A stretch of 30,758 nt of DNA from a virus, in IMG/VR virus record IMGVR_UViG_3300005935_007929, positions 1 through 30,758 of that record. One strand, 5' to 3'. Positions 8,605 through 30,758 of this stretch are shown here, piece after piece. The notes under the pieces were generated by a model. That model worked only from the letters and a program-made list of their open reading frames with translations. It searched no databases and was not told the origin of the DNA. How positions within the stretch are numbered: position 1 is the stretch's first letter; the number at the start of each line of letters is the position of its first letter. The position numbers were made by a program, and so were the translations under genes.

Positions 8605-8667
8605 TAAATAGTTTCAATAGTTTATAGTTAACAATCCTTAAGTTTTCTACCATAGTCAGAATTAACC

Positions 8668-8696: not shown

Positions 8697-8718
8697 GGAG
8701 AAGCAAGGATAAAAAAAG

Positions 8719-8751
8719 ATTGGAAGACTTGGCTTCTCCAGGTCTTCTAAT
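8719..8751 (+). other. Leader hairpin, 14-bp stem
   Basis: 8719-8732 pairs with 8738-8751 around the loop CTTCT: 14 consecutive pairs including two G-U. It has no U-tract, so it is not an intrinsic terminator. It lies in the predicted 5' UTR, ending 17 nt before ATG 8768, and may stabilise the mRNA or control translation. Confidence 0.5.
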
Positions 8752-8767
8752 CAAAAGAGAGATTCCT

Positions 8768-11095: not shown

Positions 11096-11096
11096 T

Positions 11097-11291
11097 ATGA
11101 GAAAATTCAAAGTTAGTTCTAAAACTAAAAAAGGAGTTTTTTATATAGTAGAGGCAAACGAGAATGAAATCGAGTGCAATTGTCCTGCTGGGGAAAGAGG
11201 TTTCGAGTGTAATCATAAAAAATTGATTAAAGATTTTATAGATCGTAAATTAATATCTTCAGAACAACTTTTGAGGATTAAGGAAATATGA
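11097..11291 (+). CDS. 64-aa SWIM-type zinc finger protein
   Basis: A 64-residue protein consisting almost solely of a SWIM finger: C27-x-C29-x8-C38-x-H40 within IECNCPAGERGFECNHKK, preceded by a beta segment (FKVSSKTKKGVFYIVEA) and followed by a helix. SWIM domains bind DNA or protein and are normally part of larger proteins (for example MuDR transposases or SWI2/SNF2 ATPases), so a stand-alone version is unusual. It overlaps the epimerase gene by 4 nt and has a weak AGGA-like sequence. Its role inside a sugar operon is unknown. Confidence 0.7.
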   Translation: MRKFKVSSKTKKGVFYIVEANENEIECNCPAGERGFECNHKKLIKDFIDRKLISSEQLLRIKEI

Positions 11292-12079: not shown

Positions 12080-12863
12080 AAGAAAAATAGGGATTATCGG
12101 TTCTGAAGGTTGTGTTGGTAAACCTCAAGTTTCTTTTTGGAGTTATGGTGAAATTTATTCAGTCTTTCGGTTTGATATTTCTCTAGTTCTAAATTCAAAG
12201 GAAGCAATTAATTCTTGTGATCTTGCAGTAATTTGTGTACCTACCCCTGAGAGAGAAGATGGATCTTGTGACACTTCAATTGTTGAAGAGTCAGTTAAAT
12301 GGATAGAAGCTCCCGTTATTCTCATTAAATCGACAATTCCACCAGGAACTATTGATTTTTTGAGAAAAAAATATCGTAAAAGAATAGTTCATAGTCCAGC
12401 ATTTCTTCTTGAAACCAAATATGGCAATCCTAATAAATTTTGGAAAGATCCTTTGGCGATTCCATTTGTAATTTTAGGAGGTTATCCTAAGGATAGAAAT
12501 TATGTTTATAATCTTCTTCTGCCCATTACTGGATCTAAAACTTTTAAATTTATGAGTGCCAAAGATAGTGAGATGGTAAAATATATGAGTAATTCTTTTG
12601 GGGCATTGAAAGTTACTTGGGCTACTGAGATAAAAAGAGTTTGTGATGCTTCGGGAGTTAACTTTGGAGAAGTAAGGGAAGCTTGGTCTTTAGATCCTAG
12701 TGTAACAAAATCTCATACTCTTGTTTTTCAAGATAAACCTGGTTTTAGCGGAGCTTGCCTTCCAAAAGATAGTAGAGCCTTAGTTCAGTTTGCAGAGAAG
12801 GCTGGTTATGCCGCGGAATTAATTAAAGAAGTGTTAAGATTAAATGAAAAATTTAAATCCTAA
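12066..12863 (+). CDS. Short UDP-sugar 6-dehydrogenase (Ugd/WecC family)
   Basis: A 265-aa protein of the UDP-glucose/GDP-mannose dehydrogenase family. It has a divergent Rossmann start (IGIIGSEGCVGKP), VICVPTPE (55-62), IKSTIPPGT (87-95), the SPAFLLE equivalent of PEFLxE, KYMSNSFGALKVTWATE, and GFSGACLPKD with the catalytic Cys231. It oxidises a nucleotide sugar to a uronic acid; beside WecB the substrate may be UDP-ManNAc. The usual third domain, which binds the UDP part (~150 residues), is absent: the gene ends soon after the central helix, and the next gene starts inside it (20-nt overlap). It may act on a different substrate or in a minimal form. Confidence 0.75.
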   Translation: MKENKRKIGIIGSEGCVGKPQVSFWSYGEIYSVFRFDISLVLNSKEAINSCDLAVICVPTPEREDGSCDTSIVEESVKWIEAPVILIKSTIPPGTIDFLRKKYRKRIVHSPAFLLETKYGNPNKFWKDPLAIPFVILGGYPKDRNYVYNLLLPITGSKTFKFMSAKDSEMVKYMSNSFGALKVTWATEIKRVCDASGVNFGEVREAWSLDPSVTKSHTLVFQDKPGFSGACLPKDSRALVQFAEKAGYAAELIKEVLRLNEKFKS

Positions 12864-13947
12864 AATTCTTTGTGTAGTTGGAACTAGATCCGATCTTATA
12901 AAGATTGCTTCTTTTTTAAGAGAATTGAAGAAAGATAAGTGGGCAGAAACGATTTTAGTTTTTACTGGTCAACATTATGACTATGAAATGTCTCAGATAT
13001 TTTTTCAGAATTTGGATATTTCAAAACCCAAATACAATCTTAAAGTAGGATCTGGTTCACATGCTTTTCAAACAGGCAAAATAATTGAAAGGTTAGAACC
13101 TATTCTTATAAAAGAAAAACCGAATTTAGTGATTGTAGTCGGTGATGTAAATTCAACTTTAGCTGGAGCTTTAACAGCAACAAAATTACATATTCCAATT
13201 GTTCACATTGAGTCGGGATTGAGAAGTTTTGATATGTTAATGCCCGAAGAAATTAATAGGAAACTTACTGATCATATATCTAATTTCCTATTTGCTACAG
13301 AACCAAGTGGAGTAAAGAACCTTTTAAGAGAAGGAATTTCAAAAAACAAAATCTTTTTAGTAGGAAATACAGCGATTGATATTTTAAAGGACTTACTACC
13401 TAAAATTCGGAAATCTAAAATATTAAAAGAATTGAAACTTAAGGATAAGGATTATGGAGTTTTAACCTTACATCGTCCTGAGAATGTTGATAATCCCGAA
13501 TTGTTCAAGCAACTTCTAGATATATTAACTAATGTTCAAGAGAAGATAAAAATAATTTTTCCAATTCATCCTAGAACTAAAAAGATACTTGAAAAATTAG
13601 AAGGATATAACCTTAGTAATGTGGAAATTATTAAACCTTTAGGGTATCTCGATTTTTTAGCCCTAGTTCTTCATTCCAAATTTGTCTTGACAGACAGTGG
13701 TGGCATTCAGGAAGAAACAACATTTTTGAAGATTCCTTGTTTAACTTTACGAAAGAATACTGAACGACCAATTACTATTACCCTAGGATCAAATATTCTT
13801 TGTGATAGTAATAAGAAGAAAATATTAAATGAGGTAGATAAGATTTTAAAAGGAAAATATAAAAAATCTAAGATTCCCAAATTTTGGGATGGTAAAACTA
13901 CTGAAAGAATTATTAAAATTTTAAAGAAATATGTTAAACATAATTGA
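12844..13947 (+). CDS. wecB: UDP-N-acetylglucosamine 2-epimerase (non-hydrolysing)
   Basis: A 367-aa protein of normal family length. It carries VVGTRSDLIK (11-20), TGQHYDYEM, VVGDVNST, the HIESGLRS motif (121-128) followed by MPEEINRKLTDHIS, LTLHRPENVDN and TDSGGIQEE, which together are diagnostic. It converts UDP-GlcNAc to UDP-ManNAc. The upstream dehydrogenase could then make UDP-ManNAcA, a common surface polysaccharide building block. The family's VVGTRPE is here VVGTRSD, a small deviation near the active site. Confidence 0.92.
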   Translation: MKNLNPKILCVVGTRSDLIKIASFLRELKKDKWAETILVFTGQHYDYEMSQIFFQNLDISKPKYNLKVGSGSHAFQTGKIIERLEPILIKEKPNLVIVVGDVNSTLAGALTATKLHIPIVHIESGLRSFDMLMPEEINRKLTDHISNFLFATEPSGVKNLLREGISKNKIFLVGNTAIDILKDLLPKIRKSKILKELKLKDKDYGVLTLHRPENVDNPELFKQLLDILTNVQEKIKIIFPIHPRTKKILEKLEGYNLSNVEIIKPLGYLDFLALVLHSKFVLTDSGGIQEETTFLKIPCLTLRKNTERPITITLGSNILCDSNKKKILNEVDKILKGKYKKSKIPKFWDGKTTERIIKILKKYVKHN

Positions 13948-13953
13948 ACTATT

Positions 13954-14982
13954 ATGTATCCTATAAATTATATAGATTGCAAAACTACTTGGGATGAATG
14001 GGCAAAAAAACATCCTGAAATAGTAAATAGAAAAAGAAAAGTGGTACTTCGCCAAGGTCAATCTCCTGGTGATGTCTTAACTTTTACGAGAGCAGTAGGA
14101 GATTTAAAGGAAAGTTATCCAAATTATGATATAGATGTTAGAAGTCCATGCCCAGAAATTTGGGAGAATAATCCTAACATTACATCCTTAAAAGAAAATG
14201 ATACTGATGTTGAAGTTTTTAGTATTACTTATGATGAGATAAACCAGAGTGGATGGAATGGATTACATTTTAGCGATGCTTTCCGACATGATTTGGAAAA
14301 ACAATTAGGTGTTCCAATAAAAAAAACAGGAATAAGACCAGAATTATGGATTTCAGATGAAGAGAAATCTTGGTATGGAAAGCCACATTGTGAATTTGGT
14401 TGGGATGGACCTTATTGGGTTTTGAATGCAGGAGCAAAGCCAGACAATGAATTAAAGCAATATCATAGATATCAAGAATTTGTAGATTTATTTAATAAAA
14501 AATTTAAAGGAGTAGTAAGACTGATTCAAGTAGGTCATCAAGATCATATTCATCCGAAATTAAATGGTGTACTTAATTTAATAGGTAAAACTAATTTGAG
14601 AGAAATGATTCGTTTGATTTATTGGTCTGAGGGAACTATTGGACCATTATCTTTGCAATTTGTAATAAGTGCAGCCTTTGAACAATCAGCAGTTTGTTTA
14701 GCAGCAGGAAAAGAAGGAGTAAGATGGCATCTCTATCCTCAAATGCGTTATATTCACACGAATGGTGCATTAGAATGTTGCCCATGGGATGGATGTTGGT
14801 TGGGAGGAGAAAAAGGAAGTTGTAAAGACTTAGTTGATGGAGTTCCAAAATGTTTTCGTTTAATTAAGCCTTATATGATAAGTGATGCTGTCGAAATGTA
14901 TTATGAAGGTGGAAAACTTAAATTACCAACCGAAGAAGAGAATAATAAATTTCAAGAAGATTTCAAAAAATTTAAAAAATAA
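13954..14982 (+). CDS. GT9-type heptosyltransferase-like enzyme with cysteine finger
   Basis: A 342-aa GT-B glycosyltransferase. The N-terminal domain has VLRQGQSPGDVLTFTRAVGDL (31-51), the GT9 opening motif where GDVL follows a flexible loop; the C-terminal domain has VLNAGAKPD (156-164) and a donor-site region YWSEGTIGPLSLQFVISAA (223-241). Near the end is a cysteine cluster, Cys275/276, 281, 290 and 300, ending in KCFRLIKPYMI. Cysteine fingers of this kind occur in some GT9 enzymes and, coordinating iron, in the autotransporter heptosyltransferases (TibC/Aah) that attach heptose to serine. With the ADP-heptose genes next door, a heptosyltransferase is the likeliest assignment; the acceptor is unknown. 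It closes the first operon; a new promoter follows. Confidence 0.72.
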   Translation: MYPINYIDCKTTWDEWAKKHPEIVNRKRKVVLRQGQSPGDVLTFTRAVGDLKESYPNYDIDVRSPCPEIWENNPNITSLKENDTDVEVFSITYDEINQSGWNGLHFSDAFRHDLEKQLGVPIKKTGIRPELWISDEEKSWYGKPHCEFGWDGPYWVLNAGAKPDNELKQYHRYQEFVDLFNKKFKGVVRLIQVGHQDHIHPKLNGVLNLIGKTNLREMIRLIYWSEGTIGPLSLQFVISAAFEQSAVCLAAGKEGVRWHLYPQMRYIHTNGALECCPWDGCWLGGEKGSCKDLVDGVPKCFRLIKPYMISDAVEMYYEGGKLKLPTEEENNKFQEDFKKFKK

Positions 14983-14993
14983 GATACCAAACA

Positions 14994-15022
14994 TTGACCC
15001 AAACAACTTTTTCTATTAAAAT
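14994..15022 (+). promoter_or_regulatory. TTGACCCAA promoter
   Basis: TTGACC (14994-14999, within TTGACCCAA), 17-nt spacer, TAAAAT (15017-15022). The expected start near 15029 leaves only about 5 nt before ATG 15034, an almost leaderless mRNA. Confidence 0.6.
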
Positions 15023-15033
15023 AAATTAAATAC

Positions 15034-15450
15034 ATGTCTAAGAATAAAATAATAGTATATGCTTATGTAGTTGGAGATATTTTTCACATAGGACATTTAA
15101 AAGCAATAAAAAATGCGAAAAAACAGGGAGATTATCTAATAGTTGGAGTCCTAACCGACAAAGCCACTATGGAGAAAAAGCCAAAACCCATAATCTCATT
15201 TAGACAGAGATTAAAAACGGTTGAGGCAATAAGATATGTTGATAATGTAGTTCCACAATATACATATTCCCCTCTACCAAATGTTAAAAAAATTAGACCC
15301 AATGTTTTGATGGAGAGTGATAGCCATAAAAAACAGCCTGCTAATAAATTTGTTGAATCCTATGGAGGTAAAGTAGTTGTTACTCCATATTATAAACCTC
15401 AAAGTTCAACTAAAATAAAAAATAAAGTGAAAGAAAATTGGAAAAAATAA
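15034..15450 (+). CDS. Cytidylyltransferase-like nucleotidyltransferase (TagD/RfaE2 fold)
   Basis: A 138-aa single-domain enzyme. GDIFHIGHLKAI holds the HxGH motif (His18-His21), followed by GDYLIVGVLTDKA, KPIISFRQRLKTVEAIRYVD, and a terminal SSTKIKNK similar to the STTxI motif of the superfamily. Members couple CTP or ATP to a small phosphorylated alcohol or sugar (glycerol phosphate, phosphoethanolamine, phosphocholine or heptose phosphate). The IRYVDNVVPQ...PN segment leans towards the glycerol/ethanolamine-phosphate type. Because a LicD-family transferase follows two genes later, a CDP-activated phospho-alcohol is a reasonable guess; the substrate cannot be fixed. Confidence 0.75.
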   Translation: MSKNKIIVYAYVVGDIFHIGHLKAIKNAKKQGDYLIVGVLTDKATMEKKPKPIISFRQRLKTVEAIRYVDNVVPQYTYSPLPNVKKIRPNVLMESDSHKKQPANKFVESYGGKVVVTPYYKPQSSTKIKNKVKENWKK

Positions 15451-15452
15451 TT

Positions 15453-15833
15453 ATGACAAAAGATTCACATAAAAAATCAATTTTAAAATCTATTATATGG
15501 AGAATTCTAGGAGTAATAGTATTAGCAACAGTAGTTTATCTTTATACAAGACAATGGATAACCACTGGATTAATTACAGTTATTCATCACGCTACATTTT
15601 TGTTAGTGTTTTATTTGCACGAGAGATTATGGTTTAAAATAAAAAAGTTTTCAGGGGCACTAAGGCGTATTATAAAAGCATTTACCTATGAAATAATATT
15701 AGGAATGGGACTTGGTGGATTAATTGTCTTATTAGTTACAGGACAATGGTCAAGAGTAACACAAATTACAATTACTTATACAGCAATAAAATTGATAATG
15801 TATTATTTTTACGAGAAAATTTGGACAAAATAA
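15453..15833 (+). CDS. Membrane protein with tandem DUF2061-like units
   Basis: A 126-aa protein; ATG 15453 is preferred over ATG 15438 because the latter lies inside the previous gene. Four hydrophobic segments are arranged as two similar halves: residues ~8-55 (SIIWRILGVIVLATVVYLYT ... HERLW) and ~70-126 (KAFTYEIILGMGLGGLIVLL ... YEKIW). Each half ends in an E+(L/I)W motif, as in DUF2061. The family's function is unknown; relatives are often found near sugar or sulfate activation genes. It should sit in the host inner membrane. Confidence 0.7.
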   Translation: MTKDSHKKSILKSIIWRILGVIVLATVVYLYTRQWITTGLITVIHHATFLLVFYLHERLWFKIKKFSGALRRIIKAFTYEIILGMGLGGLIVLLVTGQWSRVTQITITYTAIKLIMYYFYEKIWTK

Positions 15834-15847
15834 ATTAATAAATATTT

Positions 15848-16462
15848 ATGGGACAAGATGATAAAACAAGTTTTAGAGAAAAAGCGACTCAAGACCTAAA
15901 TGAGATAAAAGAGGTTTACGATAAATTAGGGATTAAGTTCTTTTTAGTATATGGTACATTATTGGGTGCTGTCAGAGAAAAAAATGTCATCGTAACAGAC
16001 CATGATAATGATATCGGATTATTTGGAGAAGATATTTATAGGGGTGAAGAAATATACTTTGCTCTTAAAGAGGCTGGTTTTTTAGTTGGTACTTATGTAA
16101 GTTTGCAAGACCCTAATGGAAATGTAAAAAGACCAGTTATGTTTTTAACAAACAAAAGGGTAAAAACTGAACATATTTTTCTTTTTAAAGTAGGGGATAA
16201 GAGAGTTACTTGGTATTCCACAAGAAAAAATGAAAAAACTGGAGTAACAGAGTCTCTTGTCTGGGAAAATGATGCAAAACATTTTGAATATTTGGAAGAA
16301 ACTCCGTTTTTAAATAAAAAATACCTAGTTCCTAACCATCCCAAAGAATTATTAGATTTATGGTATAAAAATTGGGGAGTTCCATCAGGTGCTCAAGTTT
16401 GGGGTTATAAATGTCCTAGATTTTGGAAAGCATTTGATCCAGTTAAAGAAGTTTTTAAATAA
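15848..16462 (+). CDS. LicD-family phosphotransferase
   Basis: A 204-aa protein with the nucleotidyltransferase-fold signature of LicD/fukutin-like enzymes: YGTLLGAVRE (35-44) and TDHDNDIGLFGED (50-62), whose acidic residues bind metal, and a C-terminal tail NHPKELLDLWYKNWGVP. Family members transfer phosphocholine or other phospho-alcohols from a CDP-linked donor to glycans. The HxGH nucleotidyltransferase two genes upstream could make such a donor. It reads as part of the operon starting at 15029. Confidence 0.82.
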   Translation: MGQDDKTSFREKATQDLNEIKEVYDKLGIKFFLVYGTLLGAVREKNVIVTDHDNDIGLFGEDIYRGEEIYFALKEAGFLVGTYVSLQDPNGNVKRPVMFLTNKRVKTEHIFLFKVGDKRVTWYSTRKNEKTGVTESLVWENDAKHFEYLEETPFLNKKYLVPNHPKELLDLWYKNWGVPSGAQVWGYKCPRFWKAFDPVKEVFK

Positions 16463-16471
16463 TATAATATT

Positions 16472-17095
16472 ATGATTGAAAGTTGGAAAGAAGACAAATT
16501 ATTATCGGGTTTTAGCAATCACTTTTTGAGTGAACCCAATGCCACTTTGCCATATTATGCTCCTTTGATGTATATTTGGATAATGGCTCATAAGCATAAA
16601 AAGATATTGGAGGTTGGTGTAGCTGAAGGCTATTCTTCTTACTACTTTGCTTATGCAGCAAAGAAAAATGAGGGAATGTACTATGGTATTGATATTCTTC
16701 CAGATCGTTGTGAGAAAGTAGATAAAGCTTTAACCGAAGCAGATTTCCCCCACAAAATTATCTGTGCTGATACTAGAAAAATGGAAAAGATTGATTTTAC
16801 AGATAGAATTGATTTAGCATTTTTAGATGGAGAACATTCAACTGAAACAGTCAGTCGTGAAATTGAAATGATTTATCCTTTATTGGATGTTCAGGGCAGA
16901 GGGTATATATTTATTCACGATATTGTAGATATGGGAAATGCTGGAATTTGGTTGAAGTTAAAAAACGATAAAAGATTTGAAACATTGGGGATGGAGCCAA
17001 ATTATGGATTAGGAATTGCCAGAAAAATGGAGGGTCTTGATTATGAAGAAAATGCTAGAAAATTTGAAACCAAAGAGTCGGAAGATCAATTTTAA
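16472..17095 (+). CDS. Class I SAM methyltransferase (Methyltransf_24-like)
   Basis: A 207-aa protein. Motif I is KILEVGVAEGYSS (44-56), followed by YGIDI, ICADTRKM, and AFLDGEHSTETVSREIEMIYPLL, the acidic block seen in Methyltransf_24/CmcI-like sugar methyltransferases, and FIHDIVD. It probably O-methylates a sugar of the glycan built by this island. No Shine-Dalgarno; short 9-nt gap after licD-like gene. A second member of the same family is encoded at 18963. Confidence 0.78.
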   Translation: MIESWKEDKLLSGFSNHFLSEPNATLPYYAPLMYIWIMAHKHKKILEVGVAEGYSSYYFAYAAKKNEGMYYGIDILPDRCEKVDKALTEADFPHKIICADTRKMEKIDFTDRIDLAFLDGEHSTETVSREIEMIYPLLDVQGRGYIFIHDIVDMGNAGIWLKLKNDKRFETLGMEPNYGLGIARKMEGLDYEENARKFETKESEDQF

Positions 17096-17113
17096 TTAAT
17101 TAAAATAAAGACA

Positions 17114-18055
17114 ATGAAATATGCTTACATAGCAACAGTCAATCCTGGATATATGTTTTCGATGAATGCTACTATAAATGCGAACAAATATTATGGCACT
17201 AATGCTGATGTCCATCTTCTTTATTTTGGTAATTTTAAAGAAGAATATATGAAAAGATGTGAAACTGCTTTTCCTTTTGAAGTGAGATGGGTTAAAATGA
17301 CTGAAGGAAATTATTTTGATGCAAAATATCGGTATGCTGCTACTTTGAAAGATAAATATGATGCAATATCTATTATTGATGCAGACTTATTTATATGTTC
17401 TGATACCAAGGAATATTTTGAAAAAGCCGCAAATGAAAATATATTAATTACTGGAACCCGAGTTCGTTCAGGGATGAAGAATAAGACAGACATGGCATGG
17501 AATAATCCTGAAGAGGTAAATGACAGATCAAGAAGTTATTTTGCAGATTTTCCAACATTTATCAATCCTAAATCTGGACAAAAATTACTTGATTGTTGGT
17601 TTAAAAATACTAACAAGGCTTATATTCCTTCTGGGTCTTTTGGAGATAGATATCATCCTTTAATAGCCCTTAACAGATGTATTTGTGAGCTTTTATCACC
17701 TGAGCAAACATTGGCTCTAGATGGAAATTTTTGGAATGCCGATTTTAAAATAAGTTTAACTGACTTTATTAGAAAGGACGATATTATGATAAATGAAAAA
17801 GGAGAAAGATTTTATGCCATTCATAATAAATGGTGGAAATCTGGAATGGCTCAACATGAGCTCAGAATTGCTCCTCATCTTAAAAATGATGTAGAAGTAA
17901 ATAAAAGGTTAGATAGACTTGAAAAAAATATGAATGAGATTAGGAATTTTATGATTTGGTTTAATGAGATGACACCATCTACTAGAAGGGATGATTATTA
18001 TAAAGAAAAGATAGATAGAATGGAATATTTGAGACGTGAAGAAAAATTATTATGA
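17114..18055 (+). CDS. GT-A-type glycosyltransferase with coiled-coil tail
   Basis: A 313-aa protein starting YAYIATVNPGY, with a DVHLLYFG strand and IIDADLF, which contains the DxD metal/nucleotide-sugar motif (89-91). A late IHNKWWKSG segment resembles the terminal His-rich part of GT8-like enzymes. The C-terminal ~50 residues (about 257-313) are charged and helical, likely a coiled coil. It is distantly similar in layout to the protein at 20449 (both start with an AYI strand and have DAD near residue 90-100), suggesting related enzymes with different substrates. Confidence 0.7.
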   Translation: MKYAYIATVNPGYMFSMNATINANKYYGTNADVHLLYFGNFKEEYMKRCETAFPFEVRWVKMTEGNYFDAKYRYAATLKDKYDAISIIDADLFICSDTKEYFEKAANENILITGTRVRSGMKNKTDMAWNNPEEVNDRSRSYFADFPTFINPKSGQKLLDCWFKNTNKAYIPSGSFGDRYHPLIALNRCICELLSPEQTLALDGNFWNADFKISLTDFIRKDDIMINEKGERFYAIHNKWWKSGMAQHELRIAPHLKNDVEVNKRLDRLEKNMNEIRNFMIWFNEMTPSTRRDDYYKEKIDRMEYLRREEKLL

Positions 18056-18062
18056 AGAAATT

Positions 18063-18962
18063 ATGAAAATATTAATAACAGGTTCACAAGGAACATTAGG
18101 TCAGCCCTTGATGAAAGAATTAAGAAAACGAGGACACGAAGTTTGGGGTTGTGATATATCTCATCAGAAAGATGAGAAATATATTAGGTGTGATATTTCT
18201 GAATTTAGACAAATAGAAAAAGTTTTATCCAAGAAGTTTGATTTTGTTTATAATCTTGCTGCTGAATTTGGCAGAATTAATGGAGAAGAATATTATGAAA
18301 AAGTTTGGAAAACTAATGTAATTGGTTTAAGAAATATCCTTGAACTTCAAAAGAAATTTGGTTTTAAATTAATTCATACTTCTTCTTCAGAGATTTATGG
18401 AGATATTAAAGTTGATTATTTAAAAGAAGATATAATTCCGTCATATCAAGAAAACGATTATGCAATTTCTAAATGGGTGAATGAAATGCAATGTAAGAAT
18501 TTTACTAAAAGATATGGAAATGAGATAATGACGATTAGATTATTTAATGCTTATGGACCTGGAGAATTTTATACTCCTTATCGTTCAGTAGTATGTTTAT
18601 TTTGTTATCGAGCACTATTGGATTTACCTTATACTGTATTTAAAGATTATCATAGGGTTTTTATGTATATTGATGATTTAATTCCTACCTTTGCTAATGC
18701 CTGTGAGAAATTTGTTTCAGGTGAAATTATTAATATCGGTGGTGAAGAATATCGTTCTGTCGAAGAATTAAATAATATAATTCTAAAACAACTTGGCAAA
18801 ACAGATAAATTTGTAACTTACTTGCCACAGGATAAACATAATATCACAAATAAAAGACCAGATATTACAAAGGCTAAAAAATTATTAAATCATAATCCTT
18901 CTATTCCATTGGAAGTTGGTGTTGAAAGAACTTTGGAATGGATGAAACAGGTTTATAAATAA
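18063..18962 (+). CDS. NAD-dependent sugar epimerase/dehydratase
   Basis: A 299-aa extended SDR; ATG 18063 is chosen because the fold begins directly with MKILITGSQGTLG, whereas the upstream GTG (18036) adds nine residues inside the previous gene. It has the NAD-binding GxxGxxG, NLAAEFG, HTSSSEIYGD, catalytic YAISK, RLFNAYGPGE, and MYIDDL near the substrate site. These features fit nucleotide-sugar 4-epimerases or 4,6-dehydratases; the exact product is unknown. It ends one base before the next gene start. Confidence 0.85.
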   Translation: MKILITGSQGTLGQPLMKELRKRGHEVWGCDISHQKDEKYIRCDISEFRQIEKVLSKKFDFVYNLAAEFGRINGEEYYEKVWKTNVIGLRNILELQKKFGFKLIHTSSSEIYGDIKVDYLKEDIIPSYQENDYAISKWVNEMQCKNFTKRYGNEIMTIRLFNAYGPGEFYTPYRSVVCLFCYRALLDLPYTVFKDYHRVFMYIDDLIPTFANACEKFVSGEIINIGGEEYRSVEELNNIILKQLGKTDKFVTYLPQDKHNITNKRPDITKAKKLLNHNPSIPLEVGVERTLEWMKQVYK

Positions 18963-19634
18963 ATGGATAAAAAAATTAAAAAGATATTAACCAGCATTAT
19001 ATTTCACAATTTAAGAATTTTAAATAAAGTTACACCTAGAGATACTTATATTGAAAATTATAAATGGCATTGGAATAAAAATAAAGATGAATTTTTTGAC
19101 TTATATCATCTTGCTTTTTATTGGGGAATGACTCGTCATCCTAAAAAGATAATTGAGATAGGAACTAGAACGGGGCTATCTTTATGTCAATTACTTTCTC
19201 CTTATTTAGATTTTGATGGAATGAAAGTCGTAATTTTTGATAGATTTGATGATGGTCTCACTAGTCCAGAATTGGTAAAAAAGCATTTAGAACATTTGGC
19301 AATTCCTACTGATTTTATTGAATTTCATGTTGGAGATTCTGGTAAAACTGTTCCTGAATTTAAAAAAACTAATAAAGACAAATTTGATTATGTCTTAGTT
19401 GATGGGGCACACATAGAAAAATATGTTACCATAGATTTAGAAAATGTAGTTGATCTGATTGCCGAGAATGGAATAATAGTTGTTGATGACATTGCTTCTC
19501 TTCCAGAAGATAATATTTCTGTTAAAATTGCTTGGGAAAAATTTAAAATTAAATATGCCCAACAGTTTACTTTTCAAGAGGATAAAGCAGGGAAAGGAAC
19601 TGGTTGGGGAATTCGTAACAGTAAAAAATTATGA
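18963..19634 (+). CDS. Class I SAM methyltransferase (Methyltransf_24-like)
   Basis: A 223-aa protein with motif I KIIEIGTRTGLS (62-73), a VVIFDRFDDG acidic loop, YVLVDGAHIEKYVTIDLENVVDLI and IIVVDDI, the pattern of Methyltransf_24/CmcI enzymes acting on sugars and antibiotics. The N-terminal ~50 residues are an additional helical part. The start follows the previous stop directly (TAAATG), and the end overlaps the next gene by 4 nt. Confidence 0.78.
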   Translation: MDKKIKKILTSIIFHNLRILNKVTPRDTYIENYKWHWNKNKDEFFDLYHLAFYWGMTRHPKKIIEIGTRTGLSLCQLLSPYLDFDGMKVVIFDRFDDGLTSPELVKKHLEHLAIPTDFIEFHVGDSGKTVPEFKKTNKDKFDYVLVDGAHIEKYVTIDLENVVDLIAENGIIVVDDIASLPEDNISVKIAWEKFKIKYAQQFTFQEDKAGKGTGWGIRNSKKL

Positions 19635-20452
19635 AATTTATAGAACCCTCAAAAGAAAAAGAGAAATTAAAGTTTCATTTAGATTCTGGCGAATATCATA
19701 AAGTCGGAATATTTTGGGGTCATGGTATAGGAGATACTTTGATGTTCCAAGTGATATTAAAAAAACTCAAAGAAATGTATCCTGATATTGAGTTTAAAAT
19801 GATTTTGATAAATGGATTACAGGAAGAGGTTATCTATCCTGATGCTGTTTTAGTTAATAGTAGAGAAGAAGCTCAAAAACTTCAAAATTTTGATTTGATT
19901 TGTCAAACTAATTTTCCGTTAGAAACAGATCCAAATTTAACTAAGCCAGAATTATGTTGTAAACAGGAGATGGGAATAGAACCTGTAGATGGACATCAAG
20001 AACTACCAAAATTTTCTAGTCCTTTAGTTGCAGTTCATTTTTGTTTAACATCATTACCCGATCTTGCAAATCCAACAGAAGAAGTGGCTCATAAAATATG
20101 GGATGAGATTCATGAAGTAGGATTAGTTCCAATTGAAGTTCATTACCACCATGTATTTGACAATCCTGTTAATAAGGTATTTCCATTTATTGATTGCACT
20201 GTTCGTGGTTGTCAGGCAAAGCTTCCTTCTTTGTTCGGACTTTTGGAAGTTTCAAGATTTTTCATAGGAGTTGTGAGTGGTCCTTTTCATTCAGCAATGA
20301 GCATTCTTCCACACGATAGAATTTGTTATTTGGAAAAAGATATCCCAGTTGCTCGCTTTACTCACAAAGACATAAAGTCGATTAATATAAAAAATTATAA
20401 AGATGGTTCTATAAAGCAATGGCTTGAGGAACAAATCAAAAAAGATTTATGA
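19631..20452 (+). CDS. Second GT9-like glycosyltransferase
   Basis: A 273-aa protein with the GT9 opening GHGIGDTLMFQVILKKLKEMYP (30-51) and a late FIGVVSGPFHSAMSI, corresponding to the donor-site motif of heptosyltransferases. It is shorter than the enzyme at 13954 and lacks the C-terminal cysteine cluster, though it has a CTVRGCQAKLP stretch. It likely transfers a heptose or similar sugar onto the growing glycan. Overlaps its neighbours by 4 nt on each side. Confidence 0.68.
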   Translation: MKFIEPSKEKEKLKFHLDSGEYHKVGIFWGHGIGDTLMFQVILKKLKEMYPDIEFKMILINGLQEEVIYPDAVLVNSREEAQKLQNFDLICQTNFPLETDPNLTKPELCCKQEMGIEPVDGHQELPKFSSPLVAVHFCLTSLPDLANPTEEVAHKIWDEIHEVGLVPIEVHYHHVFDNPVNKVFPFIDCTVRGCQAKLPSLFGLLEVSRFFIGVVSGPFHSAMSILPHDRICYLEKDIPVARFTHKDIKSINIKNYKDGSIKQWLEEQIKKDL

Positions 20453-21375
20453 CAAAATATGCTTATATAGTTGCGGCAGATTGTAAATATTTGCCAGAGT
20501 TAACAGCTTTACTTAATAGTTTTGATTACATTAAAAATAAATTTGATGTTCATTTAGTTGGTATTCATTTACCAAAAGAATTTTCAGAACAATTTGATAA
20601 ATTAAATTATAATGTTATTTATCATGATATAGACGAAAAAGAAGTTGAAGAAAGTCGTGGCATAAGTGAAGTTACTTGTAGGAAGCGTTATTATTATGCT
20701 TCAAAGTTTGGACAAGATTATGATGCAATTTGTGTATTGGATGCTGATATGATTTTTACTAGAGACCCTTGGCAGTATTTTGAAATTGCAGCAAAGACTG
20801 GTTTTGTTGTAGGAGTTAGTAAGGAACAAAATAAAGTTTATGATGATGAACATCATAAAGCAGATGGTGAATGGATTATTCCAAAAGGATATTATAATAG
20901 GGTTGATATTTGTAATTGTCCGTTATTCATTGATGTAAAAATATGGGGAAAAGCCTTTGAAAGAAGTTGGGATATATTTCTCAACCATGGGTTCAAAGCA
21001 CCAGATATGGATGCTTTAGCAATTTGTTTAATTGAAGCAGGATCGGAAGACAAAACTATTTTATTGCCAAACGTTTGTTGGTTAGGCACAAATGAAAAAT
21101 TACTGAAACCATATATACGAGCCACTAATGATAGAGGATTGATAAAATCGGAATTTGGTGAACCTGTATTTTCTTATCATGGTCATTATTACCATAAAAT
21201 TTGGAGAGAAACTCAATTAGCCAATCGTCATAAGTGTGCAGAAGGATATTTAGGTTGTTCGTTTAATACTGATAATATGGCTAAAGGTGCAATGGAATTA
21301 TTGTATTCTCATTTTAAAAAAATGTTGGATTACAAAATCAAGATTGAACATAAAGATTGGAGACATACTAGTTAA
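20449..21375 (+). CDS. GT-A-type glycosyltransferase
   Basis: A 308-aa protein: AYIVAADCKYLPEL at the start, FDVHLVGIH strand, a CRKRYYYASKFGQDYD segment, VLDADMIF with the DxD motif (98-100), and a late SYHGHYYHKIWRETQL His-rich part that could coordinate metal, as in GT8-like enzymes. It ends the glycan island; a new promoter follows 7 nt after its stop. Confidence 0.7.
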   Translation: MTKYAYIVAADCKYLPELTALLNSFDYIKNKFDVHLVGIHLPKEFSEQFDKLNYNVIYHDIDEKEVEESRGISEVTCRKRYYYASKFGQDYDAICVLDADMIFTRDPWQYFEIAAKTGFVVGVSKEQNKVYDDEHHKADGEWIIPKGYYNRVDICNCPLFIDVKIWGKAFERSWDIFLNHGFKAPDMDALAICLIEAGSEDKTILLPNVCWLGTNEKLLKPYIRATNDRGLIKSEFGEPVFSYHGHYYHKIWRETQLANRHKCAEGYLGCSFNTDNMAKGAMELLYSHFKKMLDYKIKIEHKDWRHTS

Positions 21376-21381
21376 TTATAA

Positions 21382-21410
21382 TTGACCCAAGATAAAAATT
21401 ATAATAGAAT
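21382..21410 (+). promoter_or_regulatory. TTGACCCAA promoter of the transporter unit
   Basis: TTGACC (21382-21387, within TTGACCCAA), 17-nt spacer, TAGAAT (21405-21410). The predicted start near 21417 lies just 5' of the structured leader. Confidence 0.65.
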
Positions 21411-21416
21411 AAAAAT

Positions 21417-21538
21417 AAAGAAAAGAGATTTCATCTCAGAGTCTATCTGGGGTGAGGAAACTTACTCCGTTGGGGGGTGGGGTTCTTGGAATCTCTTATC
21501 CTCTCCCCTGATGGACTCTGAAAATGAGTCCATTTTTT
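21417..21538 (+). promoter_or_regulatory. Riboswitch-like attenuator leader
   Basis: Four pairings are visible. A: AAGAGATTTC (21423-21432) with GGAATCTCTT (21488-21497), 10 bp with one G-U. B: 21437-21452 with 21505-21520, 16 positions with one G-U and one mismatch. C: GGGGTGAG-GAAA-CTTACTCC (21449-21468), 8 bp with a GNRA loop. D: the terminator (21511-21533). B shares its 3' strand with D and its 5' end with C, so B is an antiterminator and C or D its competitor; A crosses B, so they form a pseudoknot or alternatives. This is the layout of a transcription-attenuating riboswitch. I recognise no known aptamer. Confidence 0.65.
21511..21538 (+). terminator. Intrinsic terminator inside the leader
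   Basis: ATGGACTC (21511-21518), loop TGAAAAT, GAGTCCAT (21526-21533): 8 perfect pairs followed by a run of six T (21533-21538). It lies upstream of the transporter start, so reading past it is required for expression. Confidence 0.8.
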
Positions 21539-21604
21539 GTTTATGAACCTTGGTTCAATGTTAAATTAAAAACTTATCGTAAAAATAAAAATAACAAATA
21601 AAAT

Positions 21605-22489
21605 ATGTCAAATTTTACAAAGGGATTCTTAGCGGTATCGGCCTCATTTTTAGCTGTGTCTATTATAGAAGTAGCAGGTACTATGGTATTTAGACAAGGA
21701 GTAGGACCGATAACTATGCTTGGACTTAGGTCAATAATTGCTTCAATTTTATTCTTTTTAACCATAATGGTTTCTAAAGGAATTTCTTTTAGAATAAAAA
21801 AAGAAGATATTTTTCGTTTATTATTACATAGTGGGATTATAGTAGTTCACTTACTACTCTTTTGGTATGGATTAGTGGCAACAGCACATGTTCCAACCGT
21901 ACTTGCATTATGTATAACGTTTCCATTTTGGGCCATGATAATCTCAGTTATATTTTTAAAAGAAAAATTTGGGAGAACTAGATTATTTAGTTTTTTATTA
22001 GGAGGAATTGGGACATTATTTGCAGTCAATTTTTTACCAGCACTTTCGATGGCTCATGTAAATATTAAAGGGGTTGCATTAATATCTGTATCTGCAATAG
22101 CTTGGGCAGCTTTTTGGATAATAGGAAAGGAATTATTAAAAAAATATAATTTATTTACTATTTTGTTTTATAATTTCTTATTTTCTGCAATAGTATTTAC
22201 TATTTTAGCAGGTCCATCAGCCATGATAAATCAAGTTTCTCTAAAAGCATGGTTGTATATACTTCTTGTTTCAGTTGTATCTACTTATATTAATTACTCG
22301 TTGTATTATCACGGATTGAAATTTATTAGAGTATCCACAGCAACACTTATATCTTTAGCAAGACCAATAATATCTTTAACTTTAGCATTTTTTGTTCTTT
22401 CTCAAATGTTAACTATTTGGCAAGCATTTGGAGCGGTTATAATAACTGGGGGAACATACTTGTTATACAAAGAAAATAAAGACAAATGA
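21605..22489 (+). CDS. EamA/DMT-family transporter
   Basis: A 294-aa protein with about ten hydrophobic segments in two related halves (roughly 8-135 and 150-288), the drug/metabolite transporter architecture. The GPITMLGLRSIIAS and VSTATLISLARPIISLTLAFFVL segments match the family's repeat-end motifs, and the C-terminus IITGGTYLLYKENK is typical. Such proteins move small metabolites across the inner membrane; the substrate is unknown. A phage-encoded EamA carrier is uncommon. Expression should be controlled by the attenuator immediately upstream, whose ligand may be the transported compound. It overlaps the next gene by 4 nt (ATGA). Confidence 0.85.
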   Translation: MSNFTKGFLAVSASFLAVSIIEVAGTMVFRQGVGPITMLGLRSIIASILFFLTIMVSKGISFRIKKEDIFRLLLHSGIIVVHLLLFWYGLVATAHVPTVLALCITFPFWAMIISVIFLKEKFGRTRLFSFLLGGIGTLFAVNFLPALSMAHVNIKGVALISVSAIAWAAFWIIGKELLKKYNLFTILFYNFLFSAIVFTILAGPSAMINQVSLKAWLYILLVSVVSTYINYSLYYHGLKFIRVSTATLISLARPIISLTLAFFVLSQMLTIWQAFGAVIITGGTYLLYKENKDK

Positions 22490-26300: not shown

Positions 26301-26922
26301 TTCAAGCTCCTCTTCATTCTCTAGTAGCTCATCAAGCTCAAGTTTCTCTTCGAGTAGTAGTAGCAGTTCATCTAGTTCCTCTAGTTTTAGTTCGAGTTCT
26401 TCGTCAAGTTTTAGTTCAAGTAGTTCTTCTTCGTCAAGTTTTAGTTCAAGTAGTTCTTCATTCTCTAGTAGTTCTTCAAGTTCTTGTTCTTTAGATTCGA
26501 CCAAATCTTATTCAAGAGGAAAATATTTAAACTTACTTACAGACGATAGTGAACTAGAAACATCTTTTTCCTGCACTGAATATCTTGATGTGGCAACTGA
26601 TAATGATATTTATGTTCAACAATGTGCTAGAGATACTTTAGATCCTTATGGAATATTCTTATGGAAAAAGAAACATACCAACAATGTAGATATAATTACC
26701 TCTACTTGTATATTAAAAACTAGTATAGCACCAAGTACTTCAGAAGTATTCCTTCAAATTTATAATCGTAATTCAGGTAATTGGGAAACTTTAGATTCTG
26801 ACAATGTAACTGCTGCTGATACTGAATTTACTTTAAATGGTGTCCAATCTTCCAATTTAAGTTATTATTATGATGGCTCATTTTGGGTTTGTCGTCGTAT
26901 TTATCAAAAGGCTCAAACTTAA
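23335..26922 (+). CDS. Serine-rich fibre-like protein with beta-propeller
   Basis: A 1195-aa protein, probably a tail fibre or surface adhesin. Residues 1-245 are a beta-rich N-terminal region ending in LAQYPILIDTNTYY, as in many surface proteins whose N-domain closes with YP-x-ID. Residues ~250-400 look like a jelly-roll/DNRLRE-type module (ARSFFYFDTSDLPDAATITTA). Residues ~445-680 contain five PDG/SDGxKxYxxG repeats alternating with four LSTAWDIST-like repeats, a beta-propeller of the lactonase/YVTN kind. Residues 696-1050 are almost pure serine with Phe every 7-12 positions. A C-terminal domain (1051-1195) with several cysteines follows. No signal peptide. It overlaps the next gene at a single base (TAATG). 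Confidence 0.75.
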   Translation: MEEIITKRTERSKTYELEYGVRRLICYGNPIHYQPKGKINWEDIDLDFQDDGQGNWIADKNKVSTGLRQDLKLEKYFGIRYDYEHQFEGTIKEIKLDGIEKIDSDKASSLQKISNAEIKHQLNSDIEIINKLDRVSLKNFVKVNNLIKNFKIVEELHLKGLTCSNKKDGDSYIPDEYNRFNFIDEKKELKFWINQPFFTDNENESYQSLIHTLQDIDGHLIYTKIPTKEGQDDLVLAQYPILIDTNTYYSSSEDGRITSASGAWDTVHDATTGSSINKTSDTYEAIGSLSNDGKDPNIARSFFYFDTSDLPDAATITTATLKIYGYADAASNISAQEGTQADTLTTADYDAASPTPATGGGEYGHVTWEEDEWNSITFNTLGKGKISKTGTTKICCREYTQDYLDADPGLPSIRNQGRFSEYGKGAWNIGYGLYEQVKIVPTENAPQSIYFKPDGLKAYITGEGVVNEYSLSTAWDISTLTWVRNLDISTKVSSSLSVVFNSDGDKMYFTGDDDSDVPSVFEYDLDTAWNISTAEWLQTKDVSARDTYINSIRFNSDGTKMYLGGSGNDRVYQHTLSTGWDISTLSFIQYEDFDEVTDVFFSADGTKIYIAEHTNDLIDGYNLSTAWDISTISSYVGALSNGFHDWEWELGGMFIKPDGLNLYIIGTQADEINEFIIPAVTYFDPTLEIDYTEGGSSSSSSSSLSSSAVSSSSSSSSSFSSSSSSSLSSSSFSSSSSFSSSSSSSFSSSSSSSSSSSSSSSFSSSSSSSSSSFSSSSSLSSSSFSSSSSSSSFSSSSSSSSFSFSSSSSSFSSSSSSSSSSSSSSSFSSSSSSFSSSSSSSSFSSSSSSSYSGSFSSSSSSSSLSSSSSSSSSSSFSSSSSSSSSSFSSSSSSSFSSSSSSSSSSFSSSSSSSSFSSSSSSSSLSSSSSSSSSFSSSSSSSSFSSSSSSSSFSPSSSSSSFSSSSSSFSSSSSSSSFSSSSSSSSFSSSSSSSSFSSSSSSSSFSSSSSSSSSSSSSFSSSSSSSFSSSSSSSSSFSSSSSSFSSSSSSSCSLDSTKSYSRGKYLNLLTDDSELETSFSCTEYLDVATDNDIYVQQCARDTLDPYGIFLWKKKHTNNVDIITSTCILKTSIAPSTSEVFLQIYNRNSGNWETLDSDNVTAADTEFTLNGVQSSNLSYYYDGSFWVCRRIYQKAQT
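25420..26484 (+). repeat. Serine tract 1 (355 codons)
   Basis: Residues 696-1050 of the first fibre protein. The code uses all six serine codons (AGT, TCT and TCA most, also AGC, TCC, TCG) in irregular order, with TTT/TTC Phe and occasional Leu breaking the run. Mixed use of AGY and TCN codons shows it is not simple slippage of one triplet. Confidence 0.9.
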
Positions 26923-29900
26923 TGATTAAAAAGATAGAACAACTTAATAATACTACCTATAAGGTAACTCCTAAAGATAACCCTAAAGATAGGATTGAAG
27001 TTGAAATTGGAGATTTAAAACAAGAAGATTTTTACCCACAGGTTAAGTTAAAAAGGTGGGATAATGAAACAAATTTTAGTGTTCGGTTAATTGATAATGA
27101 AAAAGGAATTCCACGAGTAAGCACTTTAACAGATAAAATTACTTGGAGTAAGGGAAATATAGATATTGAATATTACGATAGTGATAATGGATTTAAAATG
27201 GTTTGGTTTTTAAAAGAAAAGCCAGCAGATACAAAGAATTTTAAAGTAGAGTTTACTATACAAAGTAAGGGTTTAGATTTTTGTTATCAACCACCATTAA
27301 CCGAAGAATTTCAAAATGGTTATTCAGAAGAATTTAAAAAAGAGATAATAGTTACTGAAACCCAAGTCAAAGATTTAGACAGAAATGTTTTAATAAATAG
27401 ACCTGAAAATATAGTTGGTTCTTATGTTTGGTATCATTCAACAAAAGGTGGAATGAATGATATTTATGGCAAGGATTATGGAACAGGGCAAGGCGGAATT
27501 ATTTACAGACCACACCTATATGATGCCGAAGGAAAAGAAGATTGGGGAATATTACACATAGAAAATGGTATTTATTCAGTAAAACCTTCGCAAGAATTTT
27601 TAGACAATGCAGTTTATCCTATTAAGAGTAATGATGAGTTTGGATATCATACAATAGGGGGAACTTCTGAATATACAAATAATGATTGTGCTTACTTTTA
27701 TAAAGCTCAACCAACTTATAGTGGAAGTGTAACTGGTATAAGTTTTTACGATAACGAAAGCGATGGAACATATTTTAAGGGGGTAATTTGGGATAATTCT
27801 ACTGACAATATTATAACAAGTGGAGTTGGAAATATAATCTTGGTAAATTATGATGATCCTACTGATTGGTATGAGTCAACATTTTCTACTCAACCAAATA
27901 TTAGTTCATCAAATTATTATAAAGTTGGATTTATTCCGAGTTATAGTGCTACTGCTCATGTTTACTATAACACAGAAGGAAGCGCCGATGATGGATATGA
28001 TTTTAGTAATAGTTATAGTTCACCTACAAGTTTAACAACTCCATATACTCAAACTGGTAGAAGGTATTCAGTTTATTGTACTTACACAGCTACATCTAGT
28101 TCCTCATCTTTTAGTAGTTCTTCAAGTTCATTTTCTAGTAGTTCTAGTTCTTCGTCAAGTTCCTCACTTTCTAGCAGTTCAAGCAGTTCTTCAAGTCTTT
28201 CTTCTAGTAGTTCTTCTTCATCTTTAGAAAGTCATACTAAATATTCATATTGTGCGAATTTTCCTAGAGCGGAAGAGGAAGTGGAAAAAGATGAAAAAAG
28301 TTCGAAATTTATTGGTTCTAGAGGAGACATTTATAGTAGTATTGAATCATTTGATGCAAATGAATTACCTTATGAAACAATTATGGGTAAGCTTGGTGTG
28401 ATAAGTGCTAGTGCTGGAACTAAAAAAGAGAATGGAGAAGAAACCAATAAACCCTGTATTGTTGTTGGGGTTAAAAAAAAGATAAAAAAAGAAAAATTAA
28501 AGAAAGAAGATTTAATTCCCACAATTTTACCAGATGGTGTGATAACAGATGTAATAGAGGTTCCGATAATAAAAAGTGCTAGTGTATCAATTTTTCCTTA
28601 TGGAGAAAAATATAGACCTATCAAAGGAGGAGTATCTTGTGGTTCTTATTGGGATAGTACTGGTACTGGAGGTAGTGTTGGTTTAGTAGTAAAAGATTCT
28701 ACAGACAATAAAATAGTAATTTTGACTTGCAATCATATTTGTGGTCTTAAATATGATTCTGATTATGGTACTCCTAATGATGGTCACCTTAATCCCGAAG
28801 GAACTGATTTTTATCAACCTGGTCCTCAAGATGTAGCAGGAAGTTCTTCAGAAGATATATGTGGTACTATAAAAAGGTCTTTTCCAATTAAATTTGGGTC
28901 AGGTACCAACTATATAGATGCTGCTATTTGTTCAATTGATTCTCCTAATGAGGGACATACTGCAATTTTAAATCTTGATTTAGGTCCATTTACTTTTGGT
29001 TCAAAATCTGATTATGCTCCAGATACCTTAATTTCGAAAGTGGGAGCAGCAACTGGAAAAATAGTTTCATCTAAAATTAAGGTAATTGATGAGAATGCAA
29101 ATATTAATATTGATTATGGAGGAGGAGGTGATGATACTGCAAGTTTTTCAAATCAGGTTAAATTTGGGCCAACAGACGGAGATACCATTGTTCAACATGG
29201 GGATTCTGGCTCTGTATTTGTAATACAAGGTACCAATAAGGTTATTGCCCTATGCTATGGAATGGATAATGATGATTTTGCTTATGGTTGTCCAATAGAA
29301 AATATTGAATCAGATTTAGATGTTGAAGCATGGAACGGAGATGTAGTAGTTGATCTTAATGCCTCTGATGTGATAGCGATTAATGGTCAATGTTATACAA
29401 AGGTAGAAGATACATTTGATCCTATAACTCATATAGTTGATAGTACTTATAATACTTGTGATGCCTGTTGGGAAGATGTTAGTAGTTCTAGTTCAAGTAG
29501 TTTAAGTAGTTCAAGTAGTTCTAGTTCTCATTCGGGATATTCTACTTGTATAAATATAGATTCATTGGAAACTAACTTCTCTTTTTCTAGTTCTTCTTCT
29601 TCCTCAAGTTCCCTTTCCTCCTCAAGTTCATCTTCGAGTAGTTTTAGCTCATCTTCTTCAAGCAGTTCGTCATTTAGTTCTTCATCTAGTAGTTCTAGTA
29701 GTTTTTCATCTTCTTCATCATCTTCATCATTCTCCTCAAGCTCGAGCAGTAGTTCATTTTCCTCTTCAAGTTCCTCAAGCTCATTCTCTTCGAGTAGCTC
29801 GAGTTCTTTCAGTTCCTCTAGTAGTAGTAGTTCATTTTCATCGAGTAGTTCTTCTAGTAGTTTTAGCTCATCGTCTAGCTCCAGTAGTTTTTCTTCTTCA

Positions 29901-30758
29901 TCTTCTTCATCATCATCATTTAGCAGTTCTTCCTCTTCGAGTAGTTTTAGCTCTTCCAGTTCAAGTAGTTCTTTTAGTTCTAGTTCCTCATCTAGCTCAT
30001 TCTCCTCAAGTAGTTCCTCTTCTTCTTTTAGTTCAAGCTCAAGCTCAAGCTCGAGTAGCTTTTCAAGTAGTTCAAGCTCTTCTAGTTTTAGTTCGAGTTC
30101 TTCATCTAGTAGTTCCAGTTCCTCTTTTTCTTCATCATCTTCATCTTCCAGTTTTTCTTCAAGCTCATCAAGTAGTCTTTCTAGTAGTTCATCCTCTTCA
30201 CTAAGTTCGAGCTCTTCCAGTTCTAGTTCTTTTTCTAGTTCTTCTAGTTCGTCCTCATTTAGTAGTTCGTCATCTAGTAGCAGTTTTTCTAGTAGTTCTT
30301 CATCATCTTCTTTTAGCAGTAGTTCCTCGAGTTCAAGTTTTTCTTCTAGTAGTAGCAGTTCTAGTAGTTCATTAAGTTCTTCTTCTAGCTCTTCATTTTC
30401 GTTTTCTAGTAGTTCTTCGTCTTCTAGTCTTTCCTCTAGTTCATCAAGTTCTTCGCATAGTAGTAGTTCTTCAAGCAGTTCGTTTAGTAGTTCTTCGTCC
30501 TCTTCAAGTTCATTTAGTAGTAGTTCAAGTTCAAGTAGTTCTAGTTTTAGTAGTTCTTCCTCTTCTTCTTTCAGTAGTAGTTCTTCAAGCAGCAGTAGTT
30601 TTAGTAGTTCATCATCATCTAGTTCGTCTTCAAGCTCATTCTCAAGTTCATCTAGTTCGTCTAGTTTTAGTTCATCTAGTAGTTCATCGAGTTTTTCAAG
30701 TTCTAGTAGCTCTAGTAGTTCTAGTAGCTTTTCTTCTAGTAGTTCAAGTTCATTCAGC
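26922..30758 (+). CDS. Serine-rich fibre-like protein with trypsin-like protease domain (partial)
   Basis: An open frame from ATG 26922 to the window end (1279 codons, no stop), so the protein is longer. Residues 1-235 are a beta-rich N-domain ending DNAVYPIKS, similar in layout to that of the previous protein. Residues ~240-390 are a second beta domain. A short Ser tract (392-434) leads to a linker and then a trypsin-fold protease (about 565-815): LTCNHICG with His605, NYIDAAICSID with Asp666, and HGDSGSVF with Ser762, the complete triad in the correct order. A Cys-containing segment, another short Ser run (854-869) and a long Ser/Phe tract (886 to the end) follow. The protease may process the fibre itself or host surface proteins. 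The start overlaps the previous stop by one base, so both are co-translated. Confidence 0.8.
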   Translation, partial: MIKKIEQLNNTTYKVTPKDNPKDRIEVEIGDLKQEDFYPQVKLKRWDNETNFSVRLIDNEKGIPRVSTLTDKITWSKGNIDIEYYDSDNGFKMVWFLKEKPADTKNFKVEFTIQSKGLDFCYQPPLTEEFQNGYSEEFKKEIIVTETQVKDLDRNVLINRPENIVGSYVWYHSTKGGMNDIYGKDYGTGQGGIIYRPHLYDAEGKEDWGILHIENGIYSVKPSQEFLDNAVYPIKSNDEFGYHTIGGTSEYTNNDCAYFYKAQPTYSGSVTGISFYDNESDGTYFKGVIWDNSTDNIITSGVGNIILVNYDDPTDWYESTFSTQPNISSSNYYKVGFIPSYSATAHVYYNTEGSADDGYDFSNSYSSPTSLTTPYTQTGRRYSVYCTYTATSSSSSFSSSSSSFSSSSSSSSSSSLSSSSSSSSSLSSSSSSSSLESHTKYSYCANFPRAEEEVEKDEKSSKFIGSRGDIYSSIESFDANELPYETIMGKLGVISASAGTKKENGEETNKPCIVVGVKKKIKKEKLKKEDLIPTILPDGVITDVIEVPIIKSASVSIFPYGEKYRPIKGGVSCGSYWDSTGTGGSVGLVVKDSTDNKIVILTCNHICGLKYDSDYGTPNDGHLNPEGTDFYQPGPQDVAGSSSEDICGTIKRSFPIKFGSGTNYIDAAICSIDSPNEGHTAILNLDLGPFTFGSKSDYAPDTLISKVGAATGKIVSSKIKVIDENANINIDYGGGGDDTASFSNQVKFGPTDGDTIVQHGDSGSVFVIQGTNKVIALCYGMDNDDFAYGCPIENIESDLDVEAWNGDVVVDLNASDVIAINGQCYTKVEDTFDPITHIVDSTYNTCDACWEDVSSSSSSSLSSSSSSSSHSGYSTCINIDSLETNFSFSSSSSSSSSLSSSSSSSSSFSSSSSSSSSFSSSSSSSSSFSSSSSSSSFSSSSSSSSFSSSSSSSSFSSSSSSSFSSSSSSSSFSSSSSSSSFSSSSSSSSFSSSSSSSSSFSSSSSSSSFSSSSSSSSFSSSSSSSSFSSSSSSSSFSSSSSSSSSSFSSSSSSSSFSSSSSSSSSSSSFSSSSSSSSFSSSSSSSLSSSSSSSLSSSSSSSSSFSSSSSSSSFSSSSSSSSFSSSSSSSSFSSSSSSSSFSSSSSSSSSSLSSSSSSSFSFSSSSSSSSLSSSSSSSSHSSSSSSSSFSSSSSSSSSFSSSSSSSSSSFSSSSSSSFSSSSSSSSSFSSSSSSSSSSSSFSSSSSSSSFSSSSSSSSFSSSSSSSSSSSFSSSSSSSFS
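28095..28223 (+). repeat. Serine tract 2 (43 codons)
   Basis: Residues 392-434 of the second fibre protein: serine broken by Phe or Leu, a short linker between the beta domain and the protease half. Confidence 0.85.
29481..29528 (+). repeat. Serine tract 3 (16 codons)
   Basis: Residues 854-869, directly after the CDACWED segment that follows the protease domain; one Leu, otherwise serine. Separated from the next tract by a 16-residue spacer containing one Cys. Confidence 0.8.
29577..30758 (+). repeat. Serine tract 4, runs off the window (at least 394 codons)
   Basis: Residues 886-1279 of the second fibre protein. Same composition as tract 1: serine with single Phe, rarely Leu or His, mostly every 7-11 residues, mixed AGY and TCN codons. 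Its end is not in the window. Confidence 0.9.

Follow-up and report, generated by a model that had tools for sequence, protein, structure and literature searches.

An RNA element at positions 21417-21604 of an uncultivated phage genome fragment is read, with moderate confidence, as a putative transcription attenuator that belongs to a small clade of uncultivated phages and sits between a sugar-modification cassette and the next genes, which are mostly tail or adhesin genes. Related phages carry the same RNA in the equivalent position, and for this reason it is probably a genuine switch. The window, meaning the whole 30,758-nucleotide stretch of DNA that was analyzed, is a 30.8-kb fragment with a G+C content of ~31% and 12 tRNA genes. 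Its gene order runs from portal and head genes through the sugar cassette to the element, which is followed by an EamA-family transporter gene (21605-22489, + strand), a gene for a 274-aa protein and large tail/adhesin-like ORFs. The sugar cassette (8768-21375, ~8.8-21.4 kb) comprises ~14 genes that include nucleotide-sugar enzymes, a heptose-type adenylyltransferase and glycosyltransferase-like genes in an order similar to that of the relatives, and it may serve to modify the virion or the host surface. Its first gene (8768-9706, + strand), which encodes a methyltransferase fused to a cytidylyltransferase/rfaE-II-like domain, is a candidate RNA-pairing partner of the element.

All of the parts that an earlier note had named in this region are present on the + strand: a promoter-like sequence, a long-range helix, a GAAA-capped hairpin, an antiterminator and a perfect intrinsic terminator. 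The promoter-like sequence, TTGACC-N17-TAGAAT (21382-21410), agrees with the consensus at 10 of 12 positions and would place the RNA start near 21417. The window is AT-rich and contains 84 such matches where chance predicts 81, so that the only argument for this one is its repetition in the homologues: TTGACC lies 5' of all six elements, with -10 hexamers that vary. Strand A (AAGAGATTTC, 21423-21432) is followed by P1a (21437-21447), P2a (GGGGTGAGGA, 21449-21458) and P2b (CTTACTCC, 21461-21468), the last two being the arms of the GAAA-capped 8-bp hairpin (21449-21468). Next come P3a (GGGGTGGG, 21474-21481), strand A' (GGAATCTCTT, 21488-21497), P3b (TCCTCTCCCC, 21499-21508) and P1b (21510-21520). 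The intrinsic terminator (21511-21538) has the form ATGGACTC-N7-GAGTCCAT with a T-run and a perfect 8-bp stem, and its 5' arm is overlapped by P1b. The MFE of 21417-21604 has a z-score of -4.9 and that of the 123-nt core (about 21417-21538) a z-score of -5.2, and in neither case was any of 200 shuffles as good; the homologues reach -5.7 to -7.0. The element is also the most stable + strand 110-nt stretch of the window (-50.2 vs -36.4 for the next) and the most stable 110-nt stretch in every fetched relative region that carries it.

The four similar or complementary segments P2a, P2b, P3a and P3b, together with P1a, P1b, A and A', permit two exclusive folds in each of the five clear elements. 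The ON fold consists of P1, an antiterminator of 11 continuous pairs between P1a and P1b, which is extended by the rod (P2a with P3b) and accompanied by the H2 core (P2b with P3a). In the OFF fold, the helix A:A' closes a junction that holds H1, formed by the 5' part of P1a with P2a, and H2, and the terminator is formed; H1 is weak in G011. P2a thereby has three possible partners (P3b, P1a or P2b), and P3a may also serve as the 5' strand of an alternative helix P3. The best energies with P1 formed and with the terminator formed are -57.3 and -48.7 kcal/mol in the window, -61.0 and -63.6 in G003, -70.2 and -71.3 in G002, -55.6 and -53.9 in G011, and -50.0 and -42.4 in G005, a gap of 1-9 kcal/mol across the copies. 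Among nested folds, the predicted equilibrium winner is ON in the window, G005 and G011, OFF in G003 (terminator 0.98) and mixed in G002; in G003, the MFE structure is the OFF fold itself. In three of the five copies (window, G003 and G002), RNA truncated just after A' adopts the A:A'/H1/H2 junction. The long-range helix had been described as crossing. The strands AAGAGATTTC and GGAATCTCTT are able to pair, but this pairing is crossing only if it coexists with P1; when the OFF fold forms, A:A' simply closes the junction in the usual nested manner. The alternative-fold reading is preferred to a permanent A:A' pseudoknot because G003 and the truncated RNAs fold into a nested junction. Nearly all bases of the OFF fold are paired, including most of the conserved ones, so that few remain free to form an aptamer core.

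A portal-protein search returned 24 related contigs, from which the downstream regions were fetched. Several of these relatives share the order of head genes, sugar cassette and a GT8-like gene in the last position, and the element lies directly 3' of this last gene in G003 (L042), G002 (L041), G011 (L047) and G005/G006 (L044/L045). Besides the window copy there are thus four clear copies and one near-duplicate record, together with one rearranged, divergent copy in G004 (L043); similarity at the DNA level also speaks for conservation of the clear copies. A covariance model of the five clear sequences, a custom model of the kind the earlier note had called for, recovers the clear copies at E = 1e-24 to 1e-19, these being the same sequences on which it was trained, and gives no more than a weak, partial match to G004. 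The reverse complement of L043 at 16800-16995 is a rearranged relative of the element; its strands are rearranged, and the overlap of P1 with the last terminator has been lost. In order, this copy contains a long hairpin with A' in the loop region, an A-like hairpin and a terminator.

Because MAFFT alone misaligns the repeated P2a/P3a segments, the helix strands of the five clear sequences, all from a single clade, were aligned by hand and eye, with inserted pairs and one bulge removed. In this alignment, 97.0% of the cells of the ON helices are paired, compared with 38-50% when the strands are slid. Compensatory changes on both sides are found in 14 of the 27 pairs, a count that none of 500 shuffles equaled; as the five sequences are related and all belong to one clade, these changes represent few events. 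They are distributed over P1 (4 of 11 pairs), the rod (6 of 10 pairs, 98% paired) and the H2 core (4 of 6 pairs, 100% paired). The covariation that the earlier note had looked to is observed in the hand alignment. The OFF helices are 95-100% paired in the copies in which they are set, and A:A' is paired in 49 of 50 cells of the five homologues and has no compensatory change. The intrinsic terminator, stem and U-run, is present in the window and in the four clear homologues, where the stems have changed and yet remain paired. The sharing of a strand between terminator and antiterminator (P1b and the terminator 5' arm) is likewise kept in the five copies, although not in G004. At one column of G005, linked substitutions are seen in P1a (U to C), the P1b/terminator 5' arm (A to G) and the terminator 3' arm (U to C), so that both exclusive helices are kept. 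The earlier claim that these parts share strands is in this way borne out by mutually exclusive helices that are conserved with compensatory changes in related phages.

The element has no counterpart in Rfam 15 at the loci searched and would work like known attenuators. In agreement with the earlier statement that no known aptamer class fits, no Rfam 15 family, riboswitch classes and T-box included, matches the window element or the homologous loci; at a permissive threshold, only unrelated families appear, the best of which is a microRNA model far below the cut-off. A narrow literature search did not find the element, and when phage records were searched with it by BLAST, matches were weak or absent. 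Pattern scans of IMG/VR for A followed by A' revealed no further element, the extra matches being in or near coding sequence or without the rest of the element and judged by eye to be chance. In distant phages with the same glycosyltransferases (L075-L090), no obvious comparable element follows the last glycosyltransferase. By the patterns and the model used, the element is thus seen only in this phage clade within IMG/VR. A genome scan returned one related phage-like contig, L130 (JAGMCN010000046.1), in a MAG labelled candidate division WOR-3, a placement that may point to the host or reflect a binning error; this contig carries neither the element nor an A site.

Strand A' (GGAAUCUCUU) is identical in all six phages and is the most conserved strand of the element. 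Its complement, AAGAGATTCC, is found where the first sugar-cassette gene starts in G002, G003, G004, G005, G011, L015 and L016-L018, and a site with one change from it is present at this gene start in L103 and in the window (GAGAGATTCC, 8757-8766). The match between A' and the gene start is accordingly 10/10 in G002, G003, G004, G005 and G011 and 9/10 in the window, where the site adjoins the start codon at 8768, ~12.7 kb upstream of the element. In some phages the start codon precedes the site and in others it follows, and the frame differs (MKKEIP, MSKRDS or untranslated); because of this variation, nucleotides rather than protein seem to be conserved there. Of the 186 gene starts scanned, some of them counted twice from overlapping loci, only those of this gene carry the exact 10-mer, with ~5e-5 expected per start. 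The cis partner, strand A, is less constant: one pair is a G-U in the window and in G005, G011 has a mismatch, and G004 lacks an upstream copy. All of these cases share ancestry, and the presence or absence of the site is confounded by kinship. Since a ranking of targets by duplex energy does not place the sugar gene first in every phage, the trans target is a suggestion only. A prediction follows from L103, which carries AAGAGAATCC at the target site and whose contig ends before the element: if the pairing is selected, its element should carry GGATTCTCTT.

In the attenuator model, the conserved position, the exclusive helix sets, the terminator and the compensatory changes come from the sequence, and from these we infer the order of folding and that regulation occurs. 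RNA that starts near 21417, or that arrives from upstream, would first fold into the junction closed by A:A' with H1 and H2. As P3b and P1b emerge, the RNA could rearrange to P1 and the rod, the terminator 5' arm would be taken, and polymerase would read on (ON). Alternatively, the junction would persist, the terminator would form, and an RNA of ~120 nt would be released (OFF). The complementarity of A' suggests that this strand may act as input or output by pairing with an A-type RNA, for instance at the start of the first gene of the sugar cassette, in which case read-through into the tail genes and translation of the sugar gene could be coupled. In a more novel version, which we regard as unlikely, the trigger would be another phage mRNA: pairing of A' with the sugar-gene start would break A:A' and free P1a for read-through to the tail genes, the terminated RNA could in turn silence the sugar gene, and the two modules would be coupled by RNA alone. 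Should A' truly pair with an mRNA start ~12.7 kb away, the result would be an RNA-only link between two phage gene modules, and the two complementary 10-nt strands make this pairing directly testable by mutation and compensation. The element represents an RNA family of uncultivated phages with a bistable fold backed by compensatory changes.

The genes 3' of the element differ among its carriers. Where the window has the EamA gene, G002 and G004 have a gene for a lectin-domain protein, G011 one for a tail-fibre-like protein, G005 one for a YadA-head-like protein, and G003 a poly-serine ORF. Poly-serine repeats are also seen in the window, in a large ORF (26922-30758) that has a protease-family match (phrog_20754) and runs off the window end. 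A search for relatives of the 274-aa protein downstream of the element returned none. The EamA protein has no match in 50,697 phage records, no relative was found for it in IMG/VR, and it is absent from the 21 related phage records, though six of these carry the element or its divergent form. An association with a synthesis or transport gene of one compound was thus looked for and not found, given that the next genes differ and relatives lack EamA. For the same reasons, the element is assigned to the border between the sugar cassette and the tail genes, and the EamA gene looks like a local addition. The link to EamA that the earlier note had proposed is not supported.

This result bears directly on the proposal of a new class of metabolite riboswitch, perhaps for a sugar or nucleotide-sugar that the cassette enzymes produce, or for the compound carried by EamA. 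Such a proposal would account for the junction with its terminator/antiterminator platform, the lack of a match to any known class and the position next to sugar genes. It is nevertheless quite unlikely: relatives keep the element without EamA, the downstream genes are unrelated and not metabolic, and no conserved unpaired binding core is visible in the OFF fold. A metabolite-sensing aptamer, which the earlier note had proposed for the transported compound, is hypothetical, since the conserved bases are mostly paired in the OFF fold and the most conserved strand also matches a distant mRNA start. That match is central to an explanation we consider doubtful, in which the element is a discrete trans-acting phage sRNA with its own promoter and terminator, whose seed A' blocks translation of the first sugar gene and whose alternative folds set seed exposure. 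The promoter-like TTGACC, an A' strand that is invariant against its target while the cis partner varies, a target site found both in coding sequence, in more than one frame, and in untranslated sequence, and the joint lack of element and site in L130 are all consistent with an sRNA. However, this explanation does not account for the P1b/terminator-arm overlap in the five clear copies or for the extensive second fold, the seed would be hidden by cis pairing with A, a better duplex than the one with the sugar gene is predicted in G002, G003 and G005, and the pattern of presence and absence is the one confounded by kinship.

Reading of A or A' by a phage or host factor, as in a protein-responsive antiterminator or a processive (put-like) element, is very unlikely. 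It would agree with the sequence constraint on A and A' without compensatory change, with the A-type sites both at the element and at the start of the sugar cassette, and with the long late operon that may follow, but the reader protein is purely hypothetical, and RNA-RNA pairing is the simpler explanation of why A' is complementary to both A sites. Finally, the perfect intrinsic terminator lies 136-163 nt past the stop codon of the last glycosyltransferase-like gene, as would be expected if it were an ordinary terminator of the upstream sugar operon and the remainder were incidental structure. In five phages, conservation, strong structure and covariation extend over the ~90 nt before the terminator as well, so the element is more than such a terminator, and this explanation is highly improbable.

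The attenuator reading places the element near several known systems. With transcription-attenuating riboswitches, it has in common a junction that may fold first, strands common to an antiterminator and an intrinsic terminator, and a promoter-like sequence just 5'; it differs in that the downstream genes do not share a function, the OFF fold lacks a conserved unpaired core, and no Rfam class matches. In T-box and leader-peptide attenuators, as is proposed here, alternative hairpins decide termination. Unlike these, the element has no T-box match in Rfam, and no leader peptide was noticed in it in an unsystematic look. The sar RNA of phage P22 is a phage small RNA that binds the ant mRNA by base pairing and hinders the initiation of its translation (PMC12197685). 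The element resembles sar-type phage small RNAs in being a short RNA with a promoter-like sequence, a terminator and a strand complementary to a phage mRNA start. In contrast to sar, an antisense RNA of a tested system, its target would lie ~12.7 kb away through a pairing predicted from sequence, and it also has the terminator/antiterminator overlap. The put RNA of phage HK022 acts on polymerase and suppresses pausing and termination (PMC9378689). Like put, the element is a structured phage RNA that could influence termination; it differs in that its overlap with one terminator would suffice for control, the comparison with the put sequence being by Rfam scan alone.

Two further features of these phages were observed. 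Across the window and related phages, only 15 of 186 gene starts have a Shine-Dalgarno-like motif, a scarcity that suggests that the host makes little use of Shine-Dalgarno sequences. In addition, a second conserved, structured leader (8605-8767, + strand) lies between the major capsid gene and the first gene of the sugar cassette and ends in the A-like site GAGAGATTCC. In the window and in L109, L110, L111 and L114, this leader contains a hairpin and an apparent H-type pseudoknot whose strands change together, and similar outer strands with the crossing pairing are seen in more distant phages that have a different next gene.
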